From contig NZ_LR734817.1 in the NCBI RefSeq assembly GCF_902506655.1, positions 1 through 64,000 on the forward strand: 64,000 nt of DNA, given 5' to 3'. The position numbers and the translations under genes are program-made. Below the pieces are notes generated by a model, which searched no databases, had not been told where the DNA came from, and saw only the letters and a program-made list of their open reading frames with translations. Below, one piece after another: positions 28,769-38,567 of this stretch. Each line of letters starts with the position of its first letter. Positions within the stretch are counted from its first letter, which is position 1. The stretch is from Marinoscillum sp. 108 (GTDB taxonomy: Bacteria; Bacteroidota; Bacteroidia; Cytophagales; Cyclobacteriaceae).

Positions 28769-29062
28769 TTAGGCTGTCGTCACTTTCTCTATTGTTTCGA
28801 ATTCTTCCGTTTTAGTTCCAATTGCCTCTTCTATGTCATAGTCGTCTTGAAGACCTAACCAGAATTTAGGAGTTGTTCCAAAATACTTGCTTAACCGTAG
28901 AGCTGTATCTGCCGTTACTCTTCGATTCTTTTTAAGAATTTCGCTCACTCGCGTTTGTGGAATATGTAAATCTTTAGATAATCGATAGGCAGAAATCGCC
29001 ATCGGCTTTAAAAATTCTTCTAATAAAACCTCTCCAGGATGTACGTTCGGTAGCTTCTCCAT
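28769..29062 (-). CDS. higA: HigA-type antitoxin, orphaned
   Basis: 97 residues, a lambda-repressor-like XRE helix-turn-helix of the HigA/VapI group: HPGEVLLEEFLKPMAISAYRLSKDLHIPQTRVSEIL, then RRVTADTALRLSKYFGTTPKFWLGLQ. HigA neutralises the RelE-like mRNA interferase HigB and represses the operon. Here the toxin gene, normally just upstream, is reduced to its last codons. The stop codon TAA lies inside the repeat box GCCTAAC. Without its partner it could be a stand-alone regulator or a trans-acting antitoxin. Confidence 0.88.
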   Translation of the reverse strand: MEKLPNVHPGEVLLEEFLKPMAISAYRLSKDLHIPQTRVSEILKKNRRVTADTALRLSKYFGTTPKFWLGLQDDYDIEEAIGTKTEEFETIEKVTTA

Positions 29063-29077
29063 ACGCTTTAAAATTTT

Positions 29078-29110
29078 TCAGTGATAATCAATAATTTCAA
29101 CTTCGTTAAC
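29078..29110 (-). pseudogene. higB: Remnant of higB (last ~10 codons)
   Basis: Immediately upstream of higA (15 nt) the minus strand encodes VNEVEIIDYH followed by TGA. This matches the usual C-terminus of HigB-type toxins (EVEI/VDYH), at the spacing expected for a higBA operon. An in-frame stop lies 12 nt further upstream and then the diverged R1 repeat begins, so the rest of the toxin gene is gone. Confidence 0.65.
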
Positions 29111-29130
29111 CCCTGGCTGTCAACCGTTCA

Positions 29131-29403
29131 CTACCAAATCTTAGCAGATTTTCTATCCTGATCAAACCATTGCCGGCTATAGGGGTGCCCTCAAGCCGGG
29201 CAGGCTGTTACTTTTCCTTGATGAAAAGTAACCAAAAATCATGACAGAATGATCACTTCCTACCCTATCCGATCATGATCGGGGCCATCGCACACCCGGA
29301 ATTCTGTCGGGCCGTCCCGCCTGGGAGTTGAGGTTTGGGTTGAAATGACCGATCATGTTTTAGGTTTTGGAAGGGTTGTTCAATTGCTACGTTTGTTGTA
29401 AGC
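29131..29403 (-). repeat. Composite repeat R1d+R2, copy 2
   Basis: About 273 nt: diverged R1 (29131-29180, CTACCAAATCTTAGCAGATT) joined to R2 (29181-29403). Includes a perfect hairpin GTTACTTTTC/GAAAAGTAAC at 29207-29232 with loop CTTGAT. It ends GCTACGTTTGTTGTAAGC, the end site of the RDD cassette. With copy 1 it brackets higA. Confidence 0.82.
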
Positions 29404-29405
29404 TT

Positions 29406-30125
29406 TTAACTCGTTCGAACTACCACAGTTCTGGCGATTAAGTCATGCACTGCTCTTGACTTGTCGTTGAAAAGCATCGAAAAGATCTCCAAAATTGTCC
29501 ATAGAAGATTTAGTAAGCCTATGAAAAACATTGGGGCAAGAGTTACAAAGTCGGCTTGTAGTTCATAACCTTCATTCCCATAGAATATGATAAACGAGTA
29601 AGCATAAAGTAATATCATTAGAGCAACAGGCACACTATCTCTTATGAATGCTTGGTTGAGGTCGATTTCGTCCTCGTTATCAAAATCCACCACTTTCACA
29701 CCCATTGCCATTTTTCCGAGAGTGTGTCCATAATGGCCATGAAGAAATATTGAATAGATATATGGTGCAAAGCTGTTTAGCAAGTTACCAATGATAACAA
29801 TTACTCCAATGTTAGAACCGGTTATATAGCTCAGTAGAAATCCAATCGGCCACATCACAAAACCGTCAATGATAGCAGCAAAAAATCTAAGCCAAAAGGT
29901 TTGATATCGTTGACCCGATAATTTACTGGCCTTTTTGCGTTCTTGTTCCTCAGCTAGTTGGTTAGCATGGTTTCTTTGTTCATCCGTTGCTTCGTTTCGT
30001 CGTTCTAGTTCCCAAATTGCCGCGAGTTTGGCTTCCTTTTCATAACCTCCTTCGTTAATGACTTTGAGTAGTTCGTCAGTTGATTTCTTCTCAAACTTGT
30101 CGGAGAAGATGTTCCGTTTGTCCAT
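29406..30125 (-). CDS. RDD family membrane protein
   Basis: 239 residues. The N-terminal ~75 residues are soluble, charged and helical (ELLKVINEGGYEKEAKLAAIWELERRNEATDE). An RDD domain follows: RYQTFWLRFFAAIIDGFVMW with the Arg-Asp signature, three or four membrane helices, HTLGKMAMGVKVVD, and the C-terminal NDKSRAVHDLIARTVVV. RDD proteins have been linked to ion exchange or to transport accessory roles; no specific task can be read. Cassette gene of the island, its stop seven nt before the end box CTTACAAC. Confidence 0.85.
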   Translation of the reverse strand: MDKRNIFSDKFEKKSTDELLKVINEGGYEKEAKLAAIWELERRNEATDEQRNHANQLAEEQERKKASKLSGQRYQTFWLRFFAAIIDGFVMWPIGFLLSYITGSNIGVIVIIGNLLNSFAPYIYSIFLHGHYGHTLGKMAMGVKVVDFDNEDEIDLNQAFIRDSVPVALMILLYAYSFIIFYGNEGYELQADFVTLAPMFFIGLLNLLWTILEIFSMLFNDKSRAVHDLIARTVVVRTS

Positions 30126-30366
30126 TGGCTGTAATTGATTCTTACCCAGATATGGCGCTGTGGCCTCTGAGCTTAATTAATTGCGATAAAAGTAGCTTAT
30201 CTGTCGGTGTTCACAAAGTATCAGATATGCACTGCGCCATGCAGGTAAAAAACTCCCACGAGCAGAAGAGGGTAGAAAGCACATCAGATTCTTGGCGGCA
30301 TATAAGCGGGATGTTTGGCAATCTCATAGCGGATGACTAAGTAAGGCCATGCGCCATGATCGTTTG
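30126..30366. other. Spacer between two cassettes
   Basis: 240 nt with no gene. It should hold the RDD promoter and the end site of the next cassette (CGTTTGTTAGAGTGC at 30359-30373). Unlike the other spacers it contains no recognisable R1 or R2 copy. Confidence 0.4.
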
Positions 30367-30960
30367 TTAGAGTGCTTTTAGCAAACTGTTGAATTCCTTC
30401 AATCTCACAGACTTCCTCTCTACAGTAATTCGGAGCTGCTTTTCATATCTTGGAAAGTCGAAGAGCATAGTTGAAACAGGCCTCCTACTATTCGATGTAA
30501 GAATTAATATTCCATATTGACCCCACGGTGTTCTAGGGTTATTGAAATGGAAATACATTGCATGTGTTTCTGTTGAATTAGGAAAAATTTCGGATTCCTT
30601 GTCGTTAATCAGCTCGAATTGACTCCAATTATCATTAAAGTTAATAGAGCTGTGTTTATTAATTTCAAGCAGTCTCAATCGCATCCGCAACCCAATCCAA
30701 GCAGGCAACAAACATATTAATCCCGTAAAGAGTAATAGTGTCATAGAAACCATGTTTCCAGTTCCCATTAAAAACATTGATATAATCATGGCTCCCGGTA
30801 AGCCAAGAATTAACAGGTATAACAGTTGGTCAATTTGATTGAGAAAGTAGGTGTTGAACGTCTTTTGATTTTTTGTTCGAATAAGCCCAAGCACGGAAAT
30901 GAAATAAGCTATCAAAGCTAATATCCAACAAATGAACAGAAATAATGGAATGGTTTTCAT
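30367..30960 (-). CDS. Unknown integral membrane protein
   Basis: 197 residues from the ATG at 30960; the longer frame upstream reads through repeat R1 and is rejected. Three or four transmembrane segments lie in the first ~105 residues (IPLFLFICWILALIAYFISV, LLYLLILGLPGAMIISMFLM, MVSMTLLLFTGLICLLPAWI). A soluble C-terminal half of ~90 residues follows (THAMYFHFNNPRTPWGQYGILIL). No family recognised. Its stop codon TAA is part of the end box CTCTAAC, as in integron cassettes. Confidence 0.6.
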   Translation of the reverse strand: MKTIPLFLFICWILALIAYFISVLGLIRTKNQKTFNTYFLNQIDQLLYLLILGLPGAMIISMFLMGTGNMVSMTLLLFTGLICLLPAWIGLRMRLRLLEINKHSSINFNDNWSQFELINDKESEIFPNSTETHAMYFHFNNPRTPWGQYGILILTSNSRRPVSTMLFDFPRYEKQLRITVERKSVRLKEFNSLLKAL

Positions 30961-30972
30961 GGTGTATCCAAT

Positions 30973-31073
30973 GCACTCTAACAACCGACTAACAACCACC
31001 AATGGCCATTACTCGCCTGTAGCGCTACCAAATGTAGCAGATTTCAAATCTCAAACAAACCATTGTTAGCTAT
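30973..31073 (-). repeat. R1 repeat copy b, attC-like site
   Basis: About 90 nt nearly identical to copy a (27281-27370), preceded by the cassette-specific GCACTCTAAC, which is the reverse complement of the sequence at the 3' end of the neighbouring gene (30363-30373). Confidence 0.65.
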
Positions 31074-31131
31074 ACAGGTAGGCACCTATCGGGGATCAAG
31101 CAGACAGACCGGGTGCAATAAATAAGGGATC

Positions 31132-31216
31132 CAACCCGGAATCCCATGACTCACGCCTGGTGATAAATGAAAATCCGAAAAAAGAGAAATAATTGGAGGG
31201 GTAAAAGAAGAAAAAG
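31132..31216 (-). repeat. R3 repeat, copy 1
   Basis: About 85 nt with the shared core ATGACTCACGCC...AATTGGAGGGGTAAAAGAAG. The minus strand begins with a T-arm-like piece, GGGATTCCGGGTTGGATCCC. The second copy is at 31614-31700. Confidence 0.75.
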
Positions 31217-31218
31217 GG

Positions 31219-31606
31219 GGTCAAGCAATATTTAGTGTGGGGAACTCTATATAGTTATATTTTTTAAAGCCGATTAATGGACTGTGAATTTAGAAAAGTA
31301 GGAACGTTCAGGCGGGCGGGGCATCCAAGCCTTGCCCGGCCGGGACAAGTGTGAATCATTTTGACTACAATAAAATTCCCAAAAAAAGGCTCAAATAGGA
31401 TTAGTCAAAATGATTTTTTGTGTGCGACCGGCCAGGTTGGTGCCTTTCTGTAGGACAACCAATTGTTTTCTTTGCCTTCGCGGCCCGGGGCAAGCAAAGA
31501 AAATGAAGGGTAAGTAGCCAATCAGTTGGATTGAGTCATATGAGATATCAGATTACGGATCACTATCCACCTTTCACACAATCTCCCCACAAGTTTATTG
31601 CTTGAT
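31219..31606 (-). repeat. R4 repeat, copy 1
   Basis: About 390 nt related to 32478-32815. Contains two large inverted repeats: AATCATTTTGACT/AGTCAAAATGATT (31354-31415) and TTTTCTTTGC/GCAAAGAAAA (about 31467-31503). No open frame of interest. The hairpins resemble REP-like elements frequent in Bacteroidota genomes. Confidence 0.75.
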
Positions 31607-31613
31607 CCGGAAT

Positions 31614-31700
31614 CAAACCCGGAACCCTATGACTCACGCCTAGTGATAAAAGAAAATCCGAAAAAAGAGAAATAATTGGAGGGGTAAAAGAAGAAAAAGG
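31614..31700 (-). repeat. R3 repeat, copy 2
   Basis: Second copy of the R3 element; the T-arm-like part on the minus strand reads TTCCGGGTTTGATTCCGG. It separates R4 copy 1 from the tRNA-like unit, whereas in the second block R4 and the tRNA-like unit are adjacent. Confidence 0.75.
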
Positions 31701-31709
31701 TTGCGCGAC

Positions 31710-31765
31710 GCGTAGCCCGGGGCGCGTAGCCCGGGGCACGTAGTCCGGGGCGCGCAGCCTGGCAT
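31710..31765. repeat. Short GC-rich tandem repeat
   Basis: Four 14-nt units with consensus GCGTAGCCCGGGGC; the last two diverge. GC content contrasts sharply with the AT-rich surroundings. Confidence 0.7.
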
Positions 31766-31794
31766 CCTGCCACGACCGCATACAGGTGGGTATA

Positions 31795-31828
31795 AAAAGA
31801 AAAAGGTCGTGGCACCCCTACCACGACC
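31795..31828 (-). terminator. Terminator of tRNA-like unit 1
   Basis: On the minus strand: stem GGTCGTGG, loop TAGGGGTG, arm CCACGACC, then TTTTTCTTTTT. It lies 30 nt after the CCA end of the tRNA-like RNA. Confidence 0.8.
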
Positions 31829-31857
31829 AGATTCAAATAAACAACATTAACCCAAAA

Positions 31858-32013
31858 ATGGCTGTAGGAGAAGGATTCGAACCTCCACAGAGCGGTTAGC
31901 CCCGACTATTCACGATAACTTACCTAAATAGGTTATCGTGAAAGAAACCGGAATTTATCCCTTATCTCCACCCCCGAGACAGGAGGGCATGTCTGCCAAT
32001 TTCATCACCCTAC
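31858..32013 (-). ncRNA. tRNA-like RNA, copy 1, with oversized variable region
   Basis: Minus strand. A 7-bp acceptor stem (TGTAGGG with TCCTACA), discriminator G and encoded CCA, D-arm ATG/CAT with an 11-nt loop containing TTGG, anticodon arm CCCTC-CTGTCTC-GGGGG (formal anticodon GUC but pyrimidine at position 37), and T-arm GGAGG-TTCGAAT-CCTTC. Between anticodon and T-arm lie 84 nt instead of at most ~25, with an 11-bp perfect hairpin (TTCACGATAAC) enclosed by CGGTT/AACCG. The D-loop is Leu/Ser-like while the anticodon would be Asp, so ordinary decoding is doubtful. Coordinates could be off by one. A promoter-like element and a terminator flank it. Confidence 0.6.
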
Positions 32014-32020
32014 AGTGAGT

Positions 32021-32039
32021 TGCATCGGCGTCTCCGATG
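32021..32039 (-). other. Leader hairpin of tRNA-like unit 1
   Basis: Perfect 7-bp hairpin GCATCGG-AGACG-CCGATGC about 8 nt before the acceptor stem on the minus strand. The second unit has a corresponding TTTGG-AAATG-CCAAA hairpin at the same place. On the + strand this hairpin is followed by a T-rich stretch, so a + strand terminator is an alternative. Confidence 0.45.
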
Positions 32040-32052
32040 CGTTTTGATTTTT

Positions 32053-32083
32053 CAAAATTAGTACATCCATTGATTTATTAAAA
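32053..32083 (-). promoter_or_regulatory. Promoter-like element of tRNA-like unit 1
   Basis: Minus strand: TTTTAATA at the -33 position, 19-nt spacer, and TAATTTTG matching the Bacteroidota -7 consensus TANNTTTG, 39 nt before the acceptor stem. The second unit has the same elements with the same 19-nt spacing. Confidence 0.5.
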
Positions 32084-32477
32084 TAATTTCAACTCTTTTA
32101 GTTAAAATTTACACATCAAATCAAATGAGTGTCTATTTATTAACAAAATGATAATTGAAGTGCGTTTGAAGCACCAAAATTAGATTTCATCTAATCAAAT
32201 TTAGATTTTTTCAATTCATTATTTGGCAAAACATCAATGATATTCTATAAAATTTTAATGAACGAGCCTAAAACCAAATTCAATGAGCACATAATTGGAC
32301 GTAAACAGAGGTTTTAGCCTACATACTGATTCACTTAAAGACAGAAAAAGGAATGGCGATAGCGGGGCATGAACCTGCCTGACCTGGATCTGGCCGATGA
32401 TGGATGTGCCACTCTCCTCGATTTGGCTTTGGTGATCTGACCATTTCAGGTTCCTTCACGGATTTCTGGATTGATCC
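32084..32477. other. AT-rich gene-free segment
   Basis: About 390 nt, strongly AT-rich up to ~32340, with no credible frame on either strand. At 32354-32385 the minus strand has a weak tRNA 3'-end-like fragment (GGCAGGTTCATGCC followed by CGCTATC, G, CCA), perhaps a decayed third copy. Confidence 0.4.
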
Positions 32478-32815
32478 GGATCAAGCAATATTTGTGCGGG
32501 CTATCACTAAATGGTTATATTTTACGAAACCGAATTAATTCACTGTGAATTCAGAAAAGTTAGGACGCAAAGGAGGGTGGGGGCATCCAAGGCAAGTGTG
32601 AATCATTTTGACTCTAATAAAATTCCTAAAAAATGCTCAAATATGATGAGTCAAAATGATTTTTTGCGTTGGTGCCTTTTCTTTTGCTTCGTTTTCTTTG
32701 GGCATGCAAAGAAAATGAAGGGTAAATGGCCAATCAACTAGATTGAGGTATATAAGGTATCAGATTACTACTTCATCATCCACCTTTAATGCAATCTCCC
32801 TACAGGAATTCCGCT
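32478..32815 (-). repeat. R4 repeat, copy 2
   Basis: Diverged second copy of 31219-31606. Both inverted repeats are kept: AATCATTTTGACT/AGTCAAAATGATT (32601-32661) and TTTTCTTTG/GCAAAGAAAA (about 32693-32716). Confidence 0.75.
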
Positions 32816-32860
32816 TGATCCCAGAACTGGCATCCTGCCACGACCGGAAGGCCTTAAAAA

Positions 32861-32892
32861 AGAAAATGGCCGCGGCACCCCTACCACGACCA
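32861..32892 (-). terminator. Terminator of tRNA-like unit 2
   Basis: On the minus strand: stem GGTCGTGG, loop TAGGGGTG, arm CCGCGGCC, then a T-rich tail. Compared with copy 1 the changes in the arm keep pairing through G-U, so the structure is conserved. Confidence 0.7.
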
Positions 32893-32923
32893 AATTCAAT
32901 AAACAACATTAACCCAAAAATGA

Positions 32924-33028
32924 TGGCTATAGGAGAAGGATTCGAACCTCCACAAGGCCTATTTTAGAATAATCGTTTGACTATTTCTAAAAACACAAGG
33001 CTTTGTTCCTTAATAATTATTTCCTACA
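32924..33028 (-). ncRNA. tRNA-like RNA, copy 2, lacking a D-arm
   Basis: Minus strand, 105 nt. Acceptor stem TGTAGGA with TCCTATA (one G-U), discriminator G, encoded CCA and the same T-arm as copy 1. No D-arm can be drawn. A 5-bp stem with a 7-nt loop (TAAGG-AACAAAG-CCTTG) sits where an anticodon arm would be, but the loop has no U33. A second long hairpin (TTTTTAGAAATAG pairing with TTATTCTAAAA) follows. It has its own promoter-like element, leader hairpin and terminator. It may be a decayed tRNA or an RNA that mimics a tRNA end; too short for tmRNA. Confidence 0.5.
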
Positions 33029-33066
33029 GTATGAGCTTTGGCATTTCCAAAACCAGTTTGATAGTT

Positions 33067-33097
33067 CAAAAGTAATAGAACAGATATAATATTAAAA
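33067..33097 (-). promoter_or_regulatory. Promoter-like element of tRNA-like unit 2
   Basis: Minus strand: TTTTAATA, 19-nt spacer, TACTTTTG, 38 nt before the acceptor stem. Same layout as unit 1. Confidence 0.5.
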
Positions 33098-33182
33098 ATA
33101 TTTTAATAAATTTGCTCTATATTTAGATACTGTTTAAAATTGCATATCTATTATTGAATAATTAGAAACGAGCACAGTTACG

Positions 33183-33644
33183 ATGAGCAAGAATTACGAA
33201 ATTGACAATGTGGACCTCAAAATCCTCAATCTATTGATGGAGGACGCGAAAATACCCTATACTGAGGTAGCTAAAAAGGTCTTTGTTTCAGGAGGTACCG
33301 TGCATGTCCGCATGAAGAAACTGGAAGAGATGGGAGTCGTAAAAGGAACCACTCTTCAGATGGATTACTCAAAGCTTGGATATGACGTCACCTGCTTCAT
33401 GGGTATCTACCTGCAAAAATCATCTTTATATGATAGCGTAGTAGAGCAACTCAAAGACATCCCTGAAATTGTGAAAGTTCACTACACCACGGGTAATTAC
33501 AACATCTTTATTAAGATTCACTGCCGGGACACTAAACACCTCAAGGATGTTCTTCACGACAAAATCCAGAAGGTAGATGGTATAGAGCGTACTGAAACGT
33601 TCATTTCTCTGGAAGAAAGTCTGAACAGACACCTACTGTTCTAA
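33183..33644 (+). CDS. Lrp/AsnC family transcriptional regulator
   Basis: 153 residues: N-terminal winged helix-turn-helix (DLKILNLLMEDAKIPYTEVAKKVFVSGGTVHVRMKKLEEMGVV) and C-terminal RAM ligand-binding domain (FMGIYLQKSS, VHYTTGNYNIFIKIHCRD). Members sense amino acids or other small molecules as octamers. It stands directly upstream of the SUF operon with 139 nt between, a neighbourhood repeatedly seen in Bacteroidota, so control of iron-sulfur assembly is possible but not shown. Confidence 0.9.
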   Translation: MSKNYEIDNVDLKILNLLMEDAKIPYTEVAKKVFVSGGTVHVRMKKLEEMGVVKGTTLQMDYSKLGYDVTCFMGIYLQKSSLYDSVVEQLKDIPEIVKVHYTTGNYNIFIKIHCRDTKHLKDVLHDKIQKVDGIERTETFISLEESLNRHLLF

Positions 33645-33783
33645 ATAAAGAACAACATTCCCAAGTGCTGTAGGTCTTTAAGTTCGATTCTTATTTAGAA
33701 TAAATATAAATAAGTGTTTACTTTGTAAAACTTCCGAGGCTTTTGGGAGTTAAGCAAGTAATACAAGGAATCGAATAATCTTT

Positions 33784-35229
33784 ATGAGTAAAGACGACCA
33801 AATCTTAGAAGAATTTACCTCAAGAGAATATGAGCATGGATGGCATGTGGACTTTGAGGCAGACGAGGCGCCTCTGGGTATCAATGAGGATATTGTAAGA
33901 TTTATTTCAGCCAAGAAATCGGAGCCCCAGTGGCTACTAGACTGGAGACTGAAGGCCTACAAGCGGTGGACAGAAATGGAAGAACCACGATGGCCCAATG
34001 TCAAATACCCCGCTATTGGCTACCAGGACATCAAATACTACTCCGCTCCCAAGCAGGACAAGAAAGCCAAAAGTCTGGACGAGATAGACCCTGAGTTGCT
34101 CAAAACTTTTGAGCGATTGGGAATCTCCCTCAATGAGCAAAAAAGGCTCACCGGGGTAGCTGTAGATGCCGTGATCGATTCTGTATCGGTGGCCACCACC
34201 TTCAAAGAGACCCTTTCCGAACGTGGCATTATCTTTTGCTCCTTCAGTGAAGCAGTGCAGGAGCACCCTGAGCTCATCAAAAAATATTTGGGATCAGTAG
34301 TTCCAGCCGCCGATAATTACTTCGCTGCCCTGAACTCTGCGGTCTTTTCAGACGGATCCTTTTGCTATATCCCACAGGGTGTCAGATGCCCTATGGAACT
34401 TTCCACCTACTTCCGCATCAATGCTGCCAATACTGGCCAGTTTGAACGAACACTCATCGTTGCTGAAGAAGGCTCCTATGTATCCTATCTGGAAGGCTGT
34501 ACGGCCCCTCAGCGTGATGAAAATCAGCTGCATGCCGCGGTAGTGGAGATATACGCTGCCAAAGATGCTGAAGTAAAGTACTCCACGGTACAAAACTGGT
34601 ATCCGGGAGATAAAAATGGAAAAGGCGGGATTTACAACTTTGTAACCAAACGTGGCATTTGTGCCGGCGACAACTCCAAAATCAGCTGGACACAGGTAGA
34701 AACAGGCTCTGCGGTCACCTGGAAGTACCCTTCATGTATTCTAAAGGGCGACAACTCTCAGGGCGAATTCTATTCTGTGGCAGTCACCAATAATCACCAG
34801 CAGGCAGATACAGGCACCAAAATGATCCACATTGGTAAAAACACCAAGTCGAGGATCGTGTCCAAAGGTATCTCTGCCGGAAAATCGCAGAATAGCTACC
34901 GCGGACAGGTACACATCATGAAGCGCGCTGAAGGTGCACGAAACTTCTCTCAGTGCGATTCGCTACTTATGGGAGACAAGTGTGGTGCACATACCTTCCC
35001 ATACATAGATGTGGAAAACAGCTCTGCTCAAGTGGAGCATGAGGCTACCACCTCCAAGATCGGTGAAGACCAGATCTTCTACTGCCAGCAGCGTGGCATT
35101 GATGAAGAAAGCGCCGTGGCCCTGATCGTCAATGGATTTGCCAAAGAAGTCATGAATAAGCTTCCCATGGAATTTGCCGTGGAAGCTCAAAAATTGTTGG
35201 CCCTCACACTTGAGGGAAGTGTCGGATAA
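33784..35229 (+). CDS. sufB: Fe-S cluster assembly scaffold protein SufB
   Basis: 481 residues, normal for SufB. Seen: the N-terminal [63 protein letters not shown], and the C-terminal [18 protein letters not shown] with the conserved Cys used for cluster assembly. It forms the SufBC2D scaffold that builds [4Fe-4S] clusters. First gene of an operon, 17 nt from sufC. Confidence 0.97.
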
Positions 35230-35246
35230 GAAAATACCATTTATAA

Positions 35247-36002
35247 ATGCTTAAAATTAATAACCTACAGGCCTCCATAGAAGGCAAGCAGATTCTCAAA
35301 GGAATCAACCTGGAAGTAAAAGCCGGAGAAATACATGCCATCATGGGTCCAAACGGATCGGGCAAAAGTACCCTCGCTTCAGTGCTGGCAGGAAGAGAAG
35401 AATATGAAGTAGATGGTGGCACCGTGGAATATCTGGGCAAAGACCTGCTGGACCTGGCCCCTGAAGAGCGTGCCAGAGCGGGCATCTTTTTGGCCTTTCA
35501 GTACCCGGTAGAAATACCCGGTGTATCTACCACCAACTTCCTCAAGACTGCCGTCAATCAGGTGCGTGAAGCGCGTGGGCTCAAGGCCATGGATGCCGTT
35601 TCGTTTCTGAAAGAGATGAAGGAAAAAATGAAACTGGTAGATATCGACCAGGCATTATTGAGCAGATCACTGAATGAAGGTTTCTCAGGAGGTGAGAAAA
35701 AAAGAAACGAAATTTTCCAAATGGCCATGCTGGAGCCTAAGCTTTCCATTTTGGACGAAACAGACTCCGGTCTGGACATTGACGCACTTAAAATAGTAGC
35801 AGATGGAGTAAATAAACTCAGATCTGCCGATACGGCAAGCATCGTAGTAACTCACTACCAGCGTCTTCTGGACTACATCGTGCCTGATTTTGTACACGTA
35901 CTCTACCAGGGGCGCATCGTGAAATCGGGAGACAAAACCCTGGCCTACGAATTGGAAGAAAAGGGATACGATTGGATCAAAGAAGAAGTAGCTGCAGTAT
36001 AA
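35247..36002 (+). CDS. sufC: Fe-S cluster assembly ATPase SufC
   Basis: 251-residue ABC ATPase. Walker A GPNGSGKST (residues ~36-44), signature FSGGEKKRNEIFQM, and Walker B LSILDETDSGLDID with the catalytic Glu. The SufC-specific LDETDSGLDIDALK distinguishes it from transport ATPases. It drives conformational change in SufBD. The next gene, sufD, begins 14 nt later. Confidence 0.97.
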   Translation: MLKINNLQASIEGKQILKGINLEVKAGEIHAIMGPNGSGKSTLASVLAGREEYEVDGGTVEYLGKDLLDLAPEERARAGIFLAFQYPVEIPGVSTTNFLKTAVNQVREARGLKAMDAVSFLKEMKEKMKLVDIDQALLSRSLNEGFSGGEKKRNEIFQMAMLEPKLSILDETDSGLDIDALKIVADGVNKLRSADTASIVVTHYQRLLDYIVPDFVHVLYQGRIVKSGDKTLAYELEEKGYDWIKEEVAAV

Positions 36003-36016
36003 AAGCGCATTAAATC

Positions 36017-37330
36017 ATGAGTGAAGTTTTGAGTATAGAGCAGACCATTTCAGAGCAGTTTCAGCAATGGGCCGGACAGCATTTTGCAGACGAGAGCCCA
36101 CTAAAAGCACTTAAGACAAGTGCTTTGGAGCAGTTTTCTACTTTGGGCCTGCCAGCACCAAAAAGCGAAGCATATAAGTACACCCCTATCAGCAGGATAC
36201 TGGGCAAGCAATTCGACTTTGCGGCGGAGACTACTCCTGCCAGCTTCTCAAAGGCCGATTGTCAATCTCAATTCTACCAGATAGCGGATGCCAATCACCT
36301 GGTCTTTGTCAATGGCCTGTTCAATGAAGAATATTCGACCATCGTGAGTCCGTCGAGCGACCTCACCATTCGGGTATTGGATGATCAGGCACTGAAGGAG
36401 CATAGCGATATCCCACAGTTGCTGGGAAAAATATCACACATCGAAACGGATGCATTTGCCTTGCTCAATCTTGCTTTTTTCAACCAGGGGATCTACCTGA
36501 AAGCTGCCAAAAACAAGGACAACAAAGACACCTTCATCTACCACTTCATAGATGGTACAGCCAAGGACGCCATTGTCTACCCAAGAATTCTGGTAAGCAG
36601 TGAAACCGGTTCGCGACTCAATATCTTTGAAAAGACCTTTATCCGGGGAGAGCAAAACACGCTCAATGTATCCATTTTTGAAGCAGATGTGCAGGCCAAT
36701 GCGGAACTGAGGTATACCAAAATTCAGAATTACCTTACAGGTACCTATGCGGTAGAGGGCATTTACGCCACTCAAAAGAAAGACTCCAGGTTTTATACCA
36801 ATACCTTCAGCTTCAAAGCTGCGCTGATTAGAAATAACATCTACATCAACGTGGATGCAGAAAACTGCGAAGCTCACATGAATGGTCTTTATCAGCTCGG
36901 AGGGAAAACCCATGTGGACAATAACACTTCCGTGGATCACCTGAAGCCCAATTGTTTCAGCAATGAGCTCTACAAGGGTATATTGGATGAAAACTCCCGT
37001 GGCGTCTTCAATGGTAAAATCTACGTAAGGCCGGAGGCTCAAAAGACCAATGCCTTTCAGTCCAATAATAACATCCTCCTGTCTGATACAGCCACGGTGA
37101 ACACTAAGCCACAGCTGGAAATATGGGCAGACGATGTAAAATGCTCACACGGATGCACCACCGGGCAGCTGGATGAAGAAGCCATCTTTTACCTAAGGTC
37201 CAGAGGGATCAACAAGAAGCGGGCAAAAGCGCTGATGCTCAATGCCTTTGCCAATGAGACCCTCCAGGAAGTGAAAAACGACCTGGTTACCGCCGAAATA
37301 GAAGACATTATCACCAACAAGCTTGGATAA
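36017..37330 (+). CDS. sufD: Fe-S cluster assembly protein SufD
   Basis: 437 residues, homologous to the C-terminal half of SufB. Seen: PKSEAYKYTPISRI near the N-terminus, the beta-helix core, HVDNNTSVDHLKPNCFSNELYKGILDENSRGVFNGKIYVRPEAQKTNAFQSNNNILL in outline and VKCSHGCTTGQLDEEAIFYLRSRGI. It completes the scaffold with SufB and SufC. One nt separates its stop from the sufS ATG. Confidence 0.96.
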   Translation: MSEVLSIEQTISEQFQQWAGQHFADESPLKALKTSALEQFSTLGLPAPKSEAYKYTPISRILGKQFDFAAETTPASFSKADCQSQFYQIADANHLVFVNGLFNEEYSTIVSPSSDLTIRVLDDQALKEHSDIPQLLGKISHIETDAFALLNLAFFNQGIYLKAAKNKDNKDTFIYHFIDGTAKDAIVYPRILVSSETGSRLNIFEKTFIRGEQNTLNVSIFEADVQANAELRYTKIQNYLTGTYAVEGIYATQKKDSRFYTNTFSFKAALIRNNIYINVDAENCEAHMNGLYQLGGKTHVDNNTSVDHLKPNCFSNELYKGILDENSRGVFNGKIYVRPEAQKTNAFQSNNNILLSDTATVNTKPQLEIWADDVKCSHGCTTGQLDEEAIFYLRSRGINKKRAKALMLNAFANETLQEVKNDLVTAEIEDIITNKLG

Positions 37331-37331
37331 A

Positions 37332-38567
37332 ATGAGCGTTGATACCAGCATATCCGTCGATGAAATCAGAAAAGAGTTTCCCGTTCTCCACCAACAGGTC
37401 AATGGTAAACCCCTGATCTATTTTGACAATGCGGCTACTTCTCAGACACCCGAGTGCGTCACCAATGCATTGATTCATTATTATCAGAATGACAATGCCA
37501 ACATACACCGGGGGATCCATACACTAGCAGAAAGAGCAACTACCGCTTTTGAAGAAACCCGAAAAGCTGCGCAACGATTTATCAATGCCGGAGAAGCAGA
37601 AGAAATCATCTTCACCAAAGGTACCACCGAAGGAATCAACCTGGTGGCACAGGCCTACGGCAGGAAATTTTTGAAAGCCGGAGACGAAATCATCATCTCA
37701 GGCATGGAGCATCACTCCAACATTGTGCCCTGGCAGCTCCTTTGTGAGCAAACAGGCGCCAAGCTGAAAGTGATACCCGTACAGCCCAGTGGTGAAATCC
37801 TGCTGGAGGACTTTGATCGGTTGCTGACAGACAAAACAAAGCTTGTCTCAGTGGTCTACATCAGCAACTCGCTGGGTACCGTGAATCCGGTGGCCGAAAT
37901 CATCGCCAAAGCCCATGCTGCAGGAGCAGTAACTATGATAGATGGCGCACAAGCCGCACCACATCATCAAATTGATGTGCAGGCACTGGACTGTGATTTT
38001 CTGGCCTTTTCCGGGCACAAAATGTACGGCCCTACTGGTGTAGGAGTGCTGTATGGCAAACGTGTACTTTTGGAGCGCATGGACCCTTATCAGGGTGGTG
38101 GCGAGATGATCCGGGAGGTGACTTTCGAAAAGACCACCTACAACGATATTCCCTATAAGTTTGAAGCAGGGACTCCCAATATCGCCGATGTGGTGGCCTT
38201 CAAAGCTGCCATAGAATTCATTGAAGGTATTGGGTTCGAATTTCTACATCAGCAGGAAATGGCCCTCCTGCAAAGAGGAAAGGAGCGGCTGTATAGCATC
38301 GATGGTTTCACACCCATAGGCACTGCCGCCCACAAAACCAGTGTAATCTCCTTTCTGATTGATGGAGTGCACCCATTTGACCTGGGAATGCTCCTGGATG
38401 CTCGTGGAATCGCCGTGAGAACGGGACATCACTGCACCCAGCCTCTCATGGATCATTTTCAGATAGAAGGAACCGTACGCGCTTCCTTTGCTGTTTACAA
38501 CACCGTAGAAGAGATTGACACCTTTGCTGAGGCCCTCAGCGAGATTGTAAAGAAATTCAGGTCATGA
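37332..38567 (+). CDS. sufS: Cysteine desulfurase SufS
   Basis: 411 residues from the ATG at 37332 (the frame also has a TTG three codons earlier, disfavoured as it overlaps the sufD stop). PLP enzyme of the class V aminotransferase fold: GMEHHSNIVPW, PLP lysine in FSGHKMYGPTGVG, and active-site cysteine in RTGHHCTQPL. It removes sulfur from cysteine for the SUF scaffold. The gene overlaps sufE by 4 nt (ATGA). Confidence 0.97.
   Translation: MSVDTSISVDEIRKEFPVLHQQVNGKPLIYFDNAATSQTPECVTNALIHYYQNDNANIHRGIHTLAERATTAFEETRKAAQRFINAGEAEEIIFTKGTTEGINLVAQAYGRKFLKAGDEIIISGMEHHSNIVPWQLLCEQTGAKLKVIPVQPSGEILLEDFDRLLTDKTKLVSVVYISNSLGTVNPVAEIIAKAHAAGAVTMIDGAQAAPHHQIDVQALDCDFLAFSGHKMYGPTGVGVLYGKRVLLERMDPYQGGGEMIREVTFEKTTYNDIPYKFEAGTPNIADVVAFKAAIEFIEGIGFEFLHQQEMALLQRGKERLYSIDGFTPIGTAAHKTSVISFLIDGVHPFDLGMLLDARGIAVRTGHHCTQPLMDHFQIEGTVRASFAVYNTVEEIDTFAEALSEIVKKFRS

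Follow-up and report, generated by a model that had tools for sequence, protein, structure and literature searches.

An apparently undescribed family of large tRNA-like RNAs with aspartate-type identity letters in Bacteroidota and viral contigs

An intact unit and a probable decayed paralogue

The window analysed here, a 64,000-nt stretch of the Marinoscillum sp. 108 genome, carries on its minus strand an RNA unit (copy 1; Table 1) that is an intact member of an apparently undescribed family of large tRNA-like RNAs distributed across many Bacteroidota. Sequence comparison shows that the fold resembles that of a tRNA and varies by compensated changes, that the 3′ end is of the tRNA type, and that in viral contigs the RNA stands amid genuine tRNA genes. 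Our preferred model, which we give about an even chance of being right, is that the RNA is charged by AspRS, acts outside normal decoding as a donor or sensor, is controlled by an Lrp-type regulator and is carried by phages for the infected cell.

A first-pass annotation of this stretch had described two tRNA-like transcription units with unlike bodies. On rechecking the coordinates, both minus-strand units were found to have a 7-bp acceptor stem, a discriminator G, an encoded CCA and the identical 22-nt T-arm block, and copy 1 does contain the D-arm, the GUC loop with pyrimidine 37 and the 84-nt variable region assigned to it. Copy 1 scored 119 bits with the family model (R1, see below), and its RNAfold minimum (−54.4) differs from the cloverleaf (−35.0 as drawn). 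ARAGORN called no tRNA over the whole window, and a search of positions 29000–36000 against Rfam, with E up to 1, returned nothing.

The idea of two RNAs with unlike bodies is better replaced by one intact and one decayed unit. Copy 2 retains the promoter, leader, acceptor, T-arm, trailer and terminator, but as a second working type it is undermined by its lack of D and anticodon arms, its G2:U71 and its score of 37 bits with the family model, versus 119 for copy 1. It is best read as a decayed copy or paralogue because a genome of the same genus (G459) has a canonical unit of 153 nt at the corresponding position, next to a 97%-identical Lrp gene; that unit lies 155 nt from the Lrp gene in divergent orientation, with two more canonical units downstream.

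The flanking signals recur in both units. The spacer between TTTTAATA and TANNTTTG, first given as 19 nt, is 15 nt: a search of the window with a 19-nt spacer found no site, while one with a 15-nt spacer found exactly two, at 32053–32083 and 33067–33097. A 38-nt leader was verified in both units and its 5-nt-loop hairpin in copy 1, and RNAfold forms the terminator hairpins downstream of each. Of 151 related arrays, 127 have TANNTTTG in the 160 nt preceding their first unit, with a peak 40–49 nt upstream, against a chance level of 17.7 of 151 arrays (mean of 100 base shuffles). A TTTGGGTTWAT-like trailer element, noted in the window and in loci L191, L222, L225 and L204, separates the RNA from the terminator in part of the family and is also left beside Lrp in some genomes with no RNA at that site; it may be a small RNA of its own.

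Table 1 Features of the two RNA units and the neighbouring regulator gene, in window coordinates
Feature	Position	Strand	Description	Basis
Copy 1 body	31862–32014	−	U1 at 32014, discriminator G73 at 31862	Sequence, model R1, A1 covariation
Copy 1 encoded CCA	31859–31861	−	Directly after G73	
Copy 1 positions 8–27, including D-arm	31988–32007	−	3-bp stem, loop AAATTGGCAGA, tRNA-Leu-like	Comparison with host tRNA-Leu D-arms
Copy 1 anticodon-like arm	31971–31987	−	CCCTC-CTGTCTC-GGGGG; GUC at 34–36, U37, C38	
Copy 1 variable domain	31886–31970 (approximate bounds)	−	GGAG/CTCT basal stem, GGATAAA/CTAAC internal loop, inner helix, 11-bp hairpin	
Copy 1 T-arm block	31867–31888	−	GTGGAGGTTCGAATCCTTCTCC, 22 nt, same letters in copy 2	
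Copy 1 promoter-like site	32053–32083	−	TTTTAATA-N15-TAATTTTG	TANNTTTG enriched upstream of relatives
Copy 1 leader	32015–32052	−	38 nt	Sequence
Copy 1 leader hairpin	32022–32040	−	5-nt loop	Sequence
Copy 1 trailer element	31834–31858	−	TTTTTGGGTTAATGTTGTTTATTTG	Common to part of the family
Copy 1 terminator hairpin	31805–31828	−	Followed by a T run	Sequence, RNAfold
Copy 2	32927–33028	−	Acceptor and T-arm kept; one long hairpin replaces D and anticodon arms; G2:U71	
Copy 2 T-arm block	32932–32953	−	GTGGAGGTTCGAATCCTTCTCC, identical to copy 1	
Copy 2 promoter-like site	33067–33097	−	TTTTAATA-N15-TACTTTTG	Sequence
Copy 2 leader	33029–33066	−	38 nt	Sequence
Copy 2 trailer element	32897–32921	−		Sequence
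Copy 2 terminator hairpin	32868–32891	−		Sequence, RNAfold
Lrp/AsnC-family regulator gene	33183–33644	+	Pfam PF01037, PF13412, PF13404	Synteny, co-occurrence

Fold, covariation and distribution of the family

A homologue search with the T-arm, as the first-pass annotation had suggested, found the exact 22-nt block in at least 120 genome contig stretches, and the structure around it covaries. Among the 80 titles listed, all but two belong to what we take to be Bacteroidota, the exceptions being metagenome bins titled Rickettsiales and Spirochaetes. Regular expressions identified 185 units in 114 of the 120 loci with a T-arm match. Alignment A1, the training set of R1, comprises 43 dereplicated bodies from 171 candidates; patterns for the T-arm and acceptor had been used to select them, which fixed some letters.

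The drawn structure is paired in 95.9% of A1 cells compared with 55.0–61.3% in slid controls, and the covariation score is 0.260 versus 0.136 after shuffling. All 43 bodies have the 7-bp acceptor stem and 5-bp T-stem, and all 43 pair the variable-arm stem (35 two-sided cells); the T-loop TTCGANT and G18 G19 are present, as a canonical tRNA requires. Two further controls are weak, with pairs showing two-sided changes numbering 9 versus 7.4 shuffled (reached in 46 of 500 shuffles) and pair types 30 versus 26.9 (reached in 9 of 500). Unaided, RNAalifold recovered the acceptor, anticodon, variable and T helices and missed the 3-bp D-stem. The relatives of copy 1 show compensating changes and not random, stem-breaking substitutions, and copy 1 is not a recent fragment of one ordinary tRNA.

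Across 395 genomes of the phylum, the R1 matches form one group at 65 bits or more and a second at 62 bits or less, the latter 82–86 nt long where listed. At 65 bits or more the RNA occurs in 41 of the 395 phylum genomes and in 49 of the 69 genomes of an order sample, where G423 has as many as six copies in tandem; the large families f7 and f18 have no sampled genome at this score. The raw tally at E ≤ 0.001 is 361 of 395 genomes, all but 41 of them under 65 bits, and the listed matches below that score were presumed to be ordinary tRNAs, mainly tRNA-Leu. In viral loci, weaker R1 matches coincide with ARAGORN calls of tRNA-Leu and then tRNA-Asp. We set aside genome matches below 65 bits and viral-locus matches below 63 bits, together with copy 2 and two truncated units, those in L294 and L266.

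Existing tools largely pass over the family. Rfam gave just two weak matches in nine related loci, neither on a unit, and ARAGORN misses 170 of 173 units, the three that it calls being the shortest (as tRNA-Asp); its tmRNA search called none of the 173. A literature search that covered few subscription papers returned no publication naming the tRNA-like RNA. For copy 1, the earlier proposal of a new tRNA-like RNA class therefore gains support from the compensated changes, the occurrence in 41 of 395 and 49 of 69 genomes, the lack of an Rfam match and the viral copies.

Family members range from 76 to 195 nt, and a 69-nt form in L025 looks decayed. The minimal 76-nt form (L190:189-264, genome G072) has no variable arm and is called tRNA-Asp(ATC) by ARAGORN; its anticodon stem is wholly different yet paired (CTAGC/GCTAG), around the loop CTATCTC. 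In four family genomes (G498, G485, G469 and G482) there are four to six dispersed full-length copies each, some with nearly the same score, which suggests that they were duplicated recently or are selected for dosage. Among the 114 loci with a unit, other recurrent neighbours are an RluD-like gene upstream (52), an AsmA-like gene downstream (50) and a FadD-like gene (17); these names are our reading of the sequences, and we saw no common function among them.

Aspartate identity and decoding letters

Letters were counted in 187 distinct sequences (91 bacterial and 96 phage), with the selection bias that 27 of the 96 phage sequences had been found by a pattern containing the loop. U35, C36, G2:C71 and G73 are present in 187 of 187 and C38 in 186, and the loop reads xNUC throughout (187 of 187). 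G34 occurs in 176, that is, in 80 of the 91 bacterial and all 96 phage sequences, while the 11 bacterial sequences without it include Roseivirga spongicola, Reichenbachiella faecimaris and family f2. Pair 1:72 is U:A in 182 and A:U in 5, and G10, a further listed Asp element, is found in just 32. Acceptor pairs 4–7 change with pairing preserved, as does the anticodon stem, which is replaced with compensation (CCGTC/GACGG, CCCGC/GCGGG, CCCAC/GTGGG and CTAGC/GCTAG). In the fairest set, A4, whose 70 distinct sequences were found by D-arm or variable-domain patterns, the loop is xxGUCxx in 70 of 70 amid 17 anticodon-stem types (one with a mismatch). Some members carry an arm, CCTCCTTTCT, that resembles the 16S 3′ end; mimicry of the anti-Shine-Dalgarno sequence was considered and rejected, as the stem is replaced with compensation and the loop is unchanged.

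In the account given by PMC9976931, aspartate identity resides in G73, G34, U35, C36 and C38, and G1-C72 and G2-C71 are strictly conserved in bacterial tRNA-Asp. The family has this whole set except for G1-C72, with G34, the strongest class of determinant in bacteria, failing in the 11 bacterial sequences. The letters associated with decoding are kept far less well, with purine 37 in 5 of 187 sequences and U33 in 158 of 187, versus 35 of 35 host tRNAs for each. The tRNAs of the viral loci have U33 in 420 of 423 and purine 37 in 416 of 423, and some of the exceptions are family members that ARAGORN calls tRNA-Asp. It is this retention of Asp identity letters together with the loss of decoding marks that leads our model to treat the RNA as putatively Asp-chargeable and not an ordinary decoder.

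At the 3′ end, the discriminator G is followed by C in 181 of 185 units; the listed host tRNA genes likewise end in a discriminator and C, with a full CCA in three. Maturation of the RNA would probably follow the tRNA route. One strong AspRS match was found in each of 23 of the 24 order genomes searched. A second AspRS dedicated to the RNA was rejected as a candidate, the weaker matches in the 24 genomes being partial and in other ORFs, which we read as LysRS and AsnRS. A large variable arm may hinder AspRS.

Linkage to an Lrp/AsnC gene

The same Lrp/AsnC gene lies upstream of the RNA in 54 of 153 loci, 9 of the 153 being short stretches with little room for it. It is divergent in every case and kept across families, at a distance of 121–290 nt; the window is the exception, with copy 2 intervening and 1169 nt separating copy 1 from the gene. 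The gene (>170 bits; next match 151) was found in 45 of the 395 genomes, including all 41 that encode the RNA, and the two are adjacent by coordinates in 30 of these 41 and not adjacent in 11, counts that are inflated by shared ancestry and give linkage, not regulation. The two f5 genomes without the RNA had no Lrp match at E ≤ 1e-25. The RNA is present at 18 of the 30 best Lrp loci. Among f4 genomes with the Lrp gene and without the RNA, three (G002, G122 and G359) keep a trailer-like element and a hairpin in the slot, and in the fourth (G182) neither was seen by eye.

In the window, the Lrp/AsnC gene heads a SUF run (33183–38567) encoding SufB-, ABC- and SufD-like proteins and a class-V aminotransferase. 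Because sufB follows the Lrp gene in 29 of 78 related loci with room, as it does in the window, the regulator may act on these iron–sulphur assembly genes.

Copies in viral contigs

Three scans of IMG/VR yielded 35, 63 and at least 120 contigs, partly overlapping. R1 detected a unit in 34 of the 35 contigs of the first scan at 67 bits or more, the remaining one being cut by the contig end; of 100 further loci (from 146), 86 had a unit scoring at least 63 bits. Of these 120 loci, 72 have another tRNA or tmRNA gene, with at least five such genes in 36 and at least 15 in 12, and all 525 of these genes share the strand of the RNA. Another tRNA or tmRNA gene lies within 20 nt in 42 of the 120, often at 4 nt. 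Where the nearest such gene is less than 200 nt away (54 loci), it is a tRNA-Ser on the upstream side in 36; in L271, for example, gaps of 4 and 5 nt separate the RNA from the preceding tRNA-Ser and the following tRNA-Leu, respectively. The RNA is without another tRNA gene in the examined stretch of 48 of the 120 loci. Phage forms carry extra D-loop hairpins, as well as a GGGGTWGACCACC motif in the variable domain that is shared by part of the bacterial set.

The evidence for phages consists of IMG/VR contigs, with phage-type genes checked in two (8 proteins): L254 and L261 matched PHROGs for primase/helicase, annealing protein, exonuclease, RNA ligase and DNA ligase. Copy 1 itself had no match among the named phages of INPHARED or the plasmids of PLSDB. 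The T4-like RNA ligase gene (L261:1572-2828) stands in a locus with 16 tRNAs plus the RNA, hinting at tRNA cleavage and repair in infection. Three phage tRNA arrays (L255, L272 and L347) also include a tmRNA gene, that of L272 flagged as permuted. Other phage tRNA arrays contain more long (~120–150 nt) tRNA-Leu-like RNAs (L245:5130-5276, L270:8188-8334, L245:7683-7830 and L267:5065-5185), which match the family model weakly, receive no ARAGORN call and are possibly tRNAs with insertions.

Comparison with known RNAs

With the tRNA-Asp(GUC)/AspRS set the family shares G34, U35, C36, C38, G73 and G2:C71, and the host tRNA-Asp loop is CTGTCAC versus CTGTCTC in copy 1. Unlike tRNA-Asp, however, it has a Leu-like D-arm, U:A at 1-72, pyrimidine 37 and a very large variable domain, and an ordinary tRNA-Asp(GUC) coexists with it in the host and several phage arrays. 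The D-arm sequence and 3-bp D-stem are those of class II tRNA-Leu, which also gives the best R1 cross-matches in viral loci, but the family has G73 where all five listed host tRNA-Leu have A73, lacks a Leu anticodon and has a far larger variable region. Similarly, tmRNA is a large RNA with a tRNA-like end and adjoins the family RNA in two phage arrays (at 26 nt in L255 and 25 nt in L347), whereas the family has a D-arm and an anticodon-like arm and drew no tmRNA call on 173 units. tRNA-Sec has a UCA anticodon and an 8-bp acceptor stem, in contrast to the xNUC loop (187 of 187) and 7-bp acceptor stem found here.

Non-canonical tRNAs offer further parallels. Allo-tRNAs and selC* tRNA-Cys are described as having long variable arms and unexpected anticodons, but they have 8/4 or 9/3 acceptor/T arms (PMC7609411) and the family 7/5. 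The tRNAOther, or pseudo-tRNA, of Bacillus cereus is a tRNA-like RNA that forms part of a larger transcript and is reported to have a role outside translation, with poor charging and a regulatory function (PMC3399842); it has a Trp anticodon and occurs in some Bacilli, and what that source describes of it shows no anatomy or distribution in common with the family. A human tRNA-Asp-like RNA, cited in PMC8007984 as non-aminoacylated and regulating AspRS, is likewise a tRNA-Asp relative used for regulation, but it is eukaryotic, said not to be aminoacylable and of unrelated context (PMC8007984).

Proposed model and alternatives

Under the preferred model, the RNA would be transcribed from its own promoter, in most lineages seen divergently from one Lrp/AsnC gene, matured like a tRNA and aspartylated by the housekeeping AspRS, which would recognize G34-U35-C36, C38, G73 and G2:C71. 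The missing purine 37 and the poor conservation of U33 would bar it from ordinary decoding, and once charged it would most likely serve as an aspartate donor or as a sensor of its own charging; no consumer of the charged RNA was found. The Lrp-type regulator would control it, and its carriage by phages would reflect a need for it that persists in the infected cell.

As the chief alternative, the RNA may be an uncharged decoy or regulator, a tRNA mimic whose binding target is AspRS, an anticodon nuclease or a tRNA-processing enzyme and which is no useful aminoacyl carrier. We consider this a real possibility, if not a probable one. It would suit the large, fast-changing variable domain, the D-loop hairpins of phage forms, the Lrp linkage, the 48 of 120 phage loci in which the RNA is alone and the T4-like RNA ligase in L261, and tRNAOther of B. 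cereus provides a precedent (PMC3399842). However, the constant G73, the C that follows it and G2:C71 lie far from the loop and suit charging, not a loop decoy.

Alternatively, the RNA could be a genuine aspartate tRNA of an unusual sort, reading GAC/GAU slowly or in special circumstances. GUC in all 96 phage sequences and in 80 of the 91 bacterial ones, the position in tRNA arrays and the ARAGORN tRNA-Asp calls for the three shortest of 173 units all fit this reading. It nevertheless appears unlikely: of 187 sequences 5 have purine 37 and 158 have U33 (each is present in 35 of 35 host tRNAs), and the host and several phage arrays also contain an ordinary tRNA-Asp(GUC). More doubtful still is a charge of some other amino acid, such as serine: the bacterial serine elements listed in PMC9976931 do include G73, G2:C71 and a large variable region, but also C72, where the family has A72 in 182 of 187 and U72 in 5, and the constant U35, C36 and C38 would be left unexplained.

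Finally, the earlier suggestion of decayed tRNA genes kept as integration targets for mobile elements is barely credible, despite the decayed look of copy 2 and short forms (the 69-nt form in L025) and the dispersed copies in some genomes, because compensating changes keep the stems and following up dispersed T-arm matches in G498, G485, G469 and G482 gave full-length units, not 3′ fragments, to which the promoter enrichment and the presence of the RNA in 49 of 69 order genomes may be added.

Implications

A more specific form of the preferred model, which we put forward tentatively and with a modest chance of being correct, is a dedicated aspartyl-carrying RNA for a codon-independent reaction (stalled-peptide tailing, ribosome rescue or another aspartyl transfer), under an Lrp-type regulator and needed in infection. 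The family is a blind spot of both ARAGORN and Rfam, and the Lrp linkage and phage copies make its function directly testable. An often multi-copy, seemingly chargeable non-decoder in most sampled members of one order and in many viral contigs would point to a non-decoding use of aspartyl-tRNA. If this is true, large Bacteroidota phages carry an aspartyl-RNA with, and sometimes without, tRNA arrays, and a further kind of translation-side RNA would stand beside tRNA and tmRNA.
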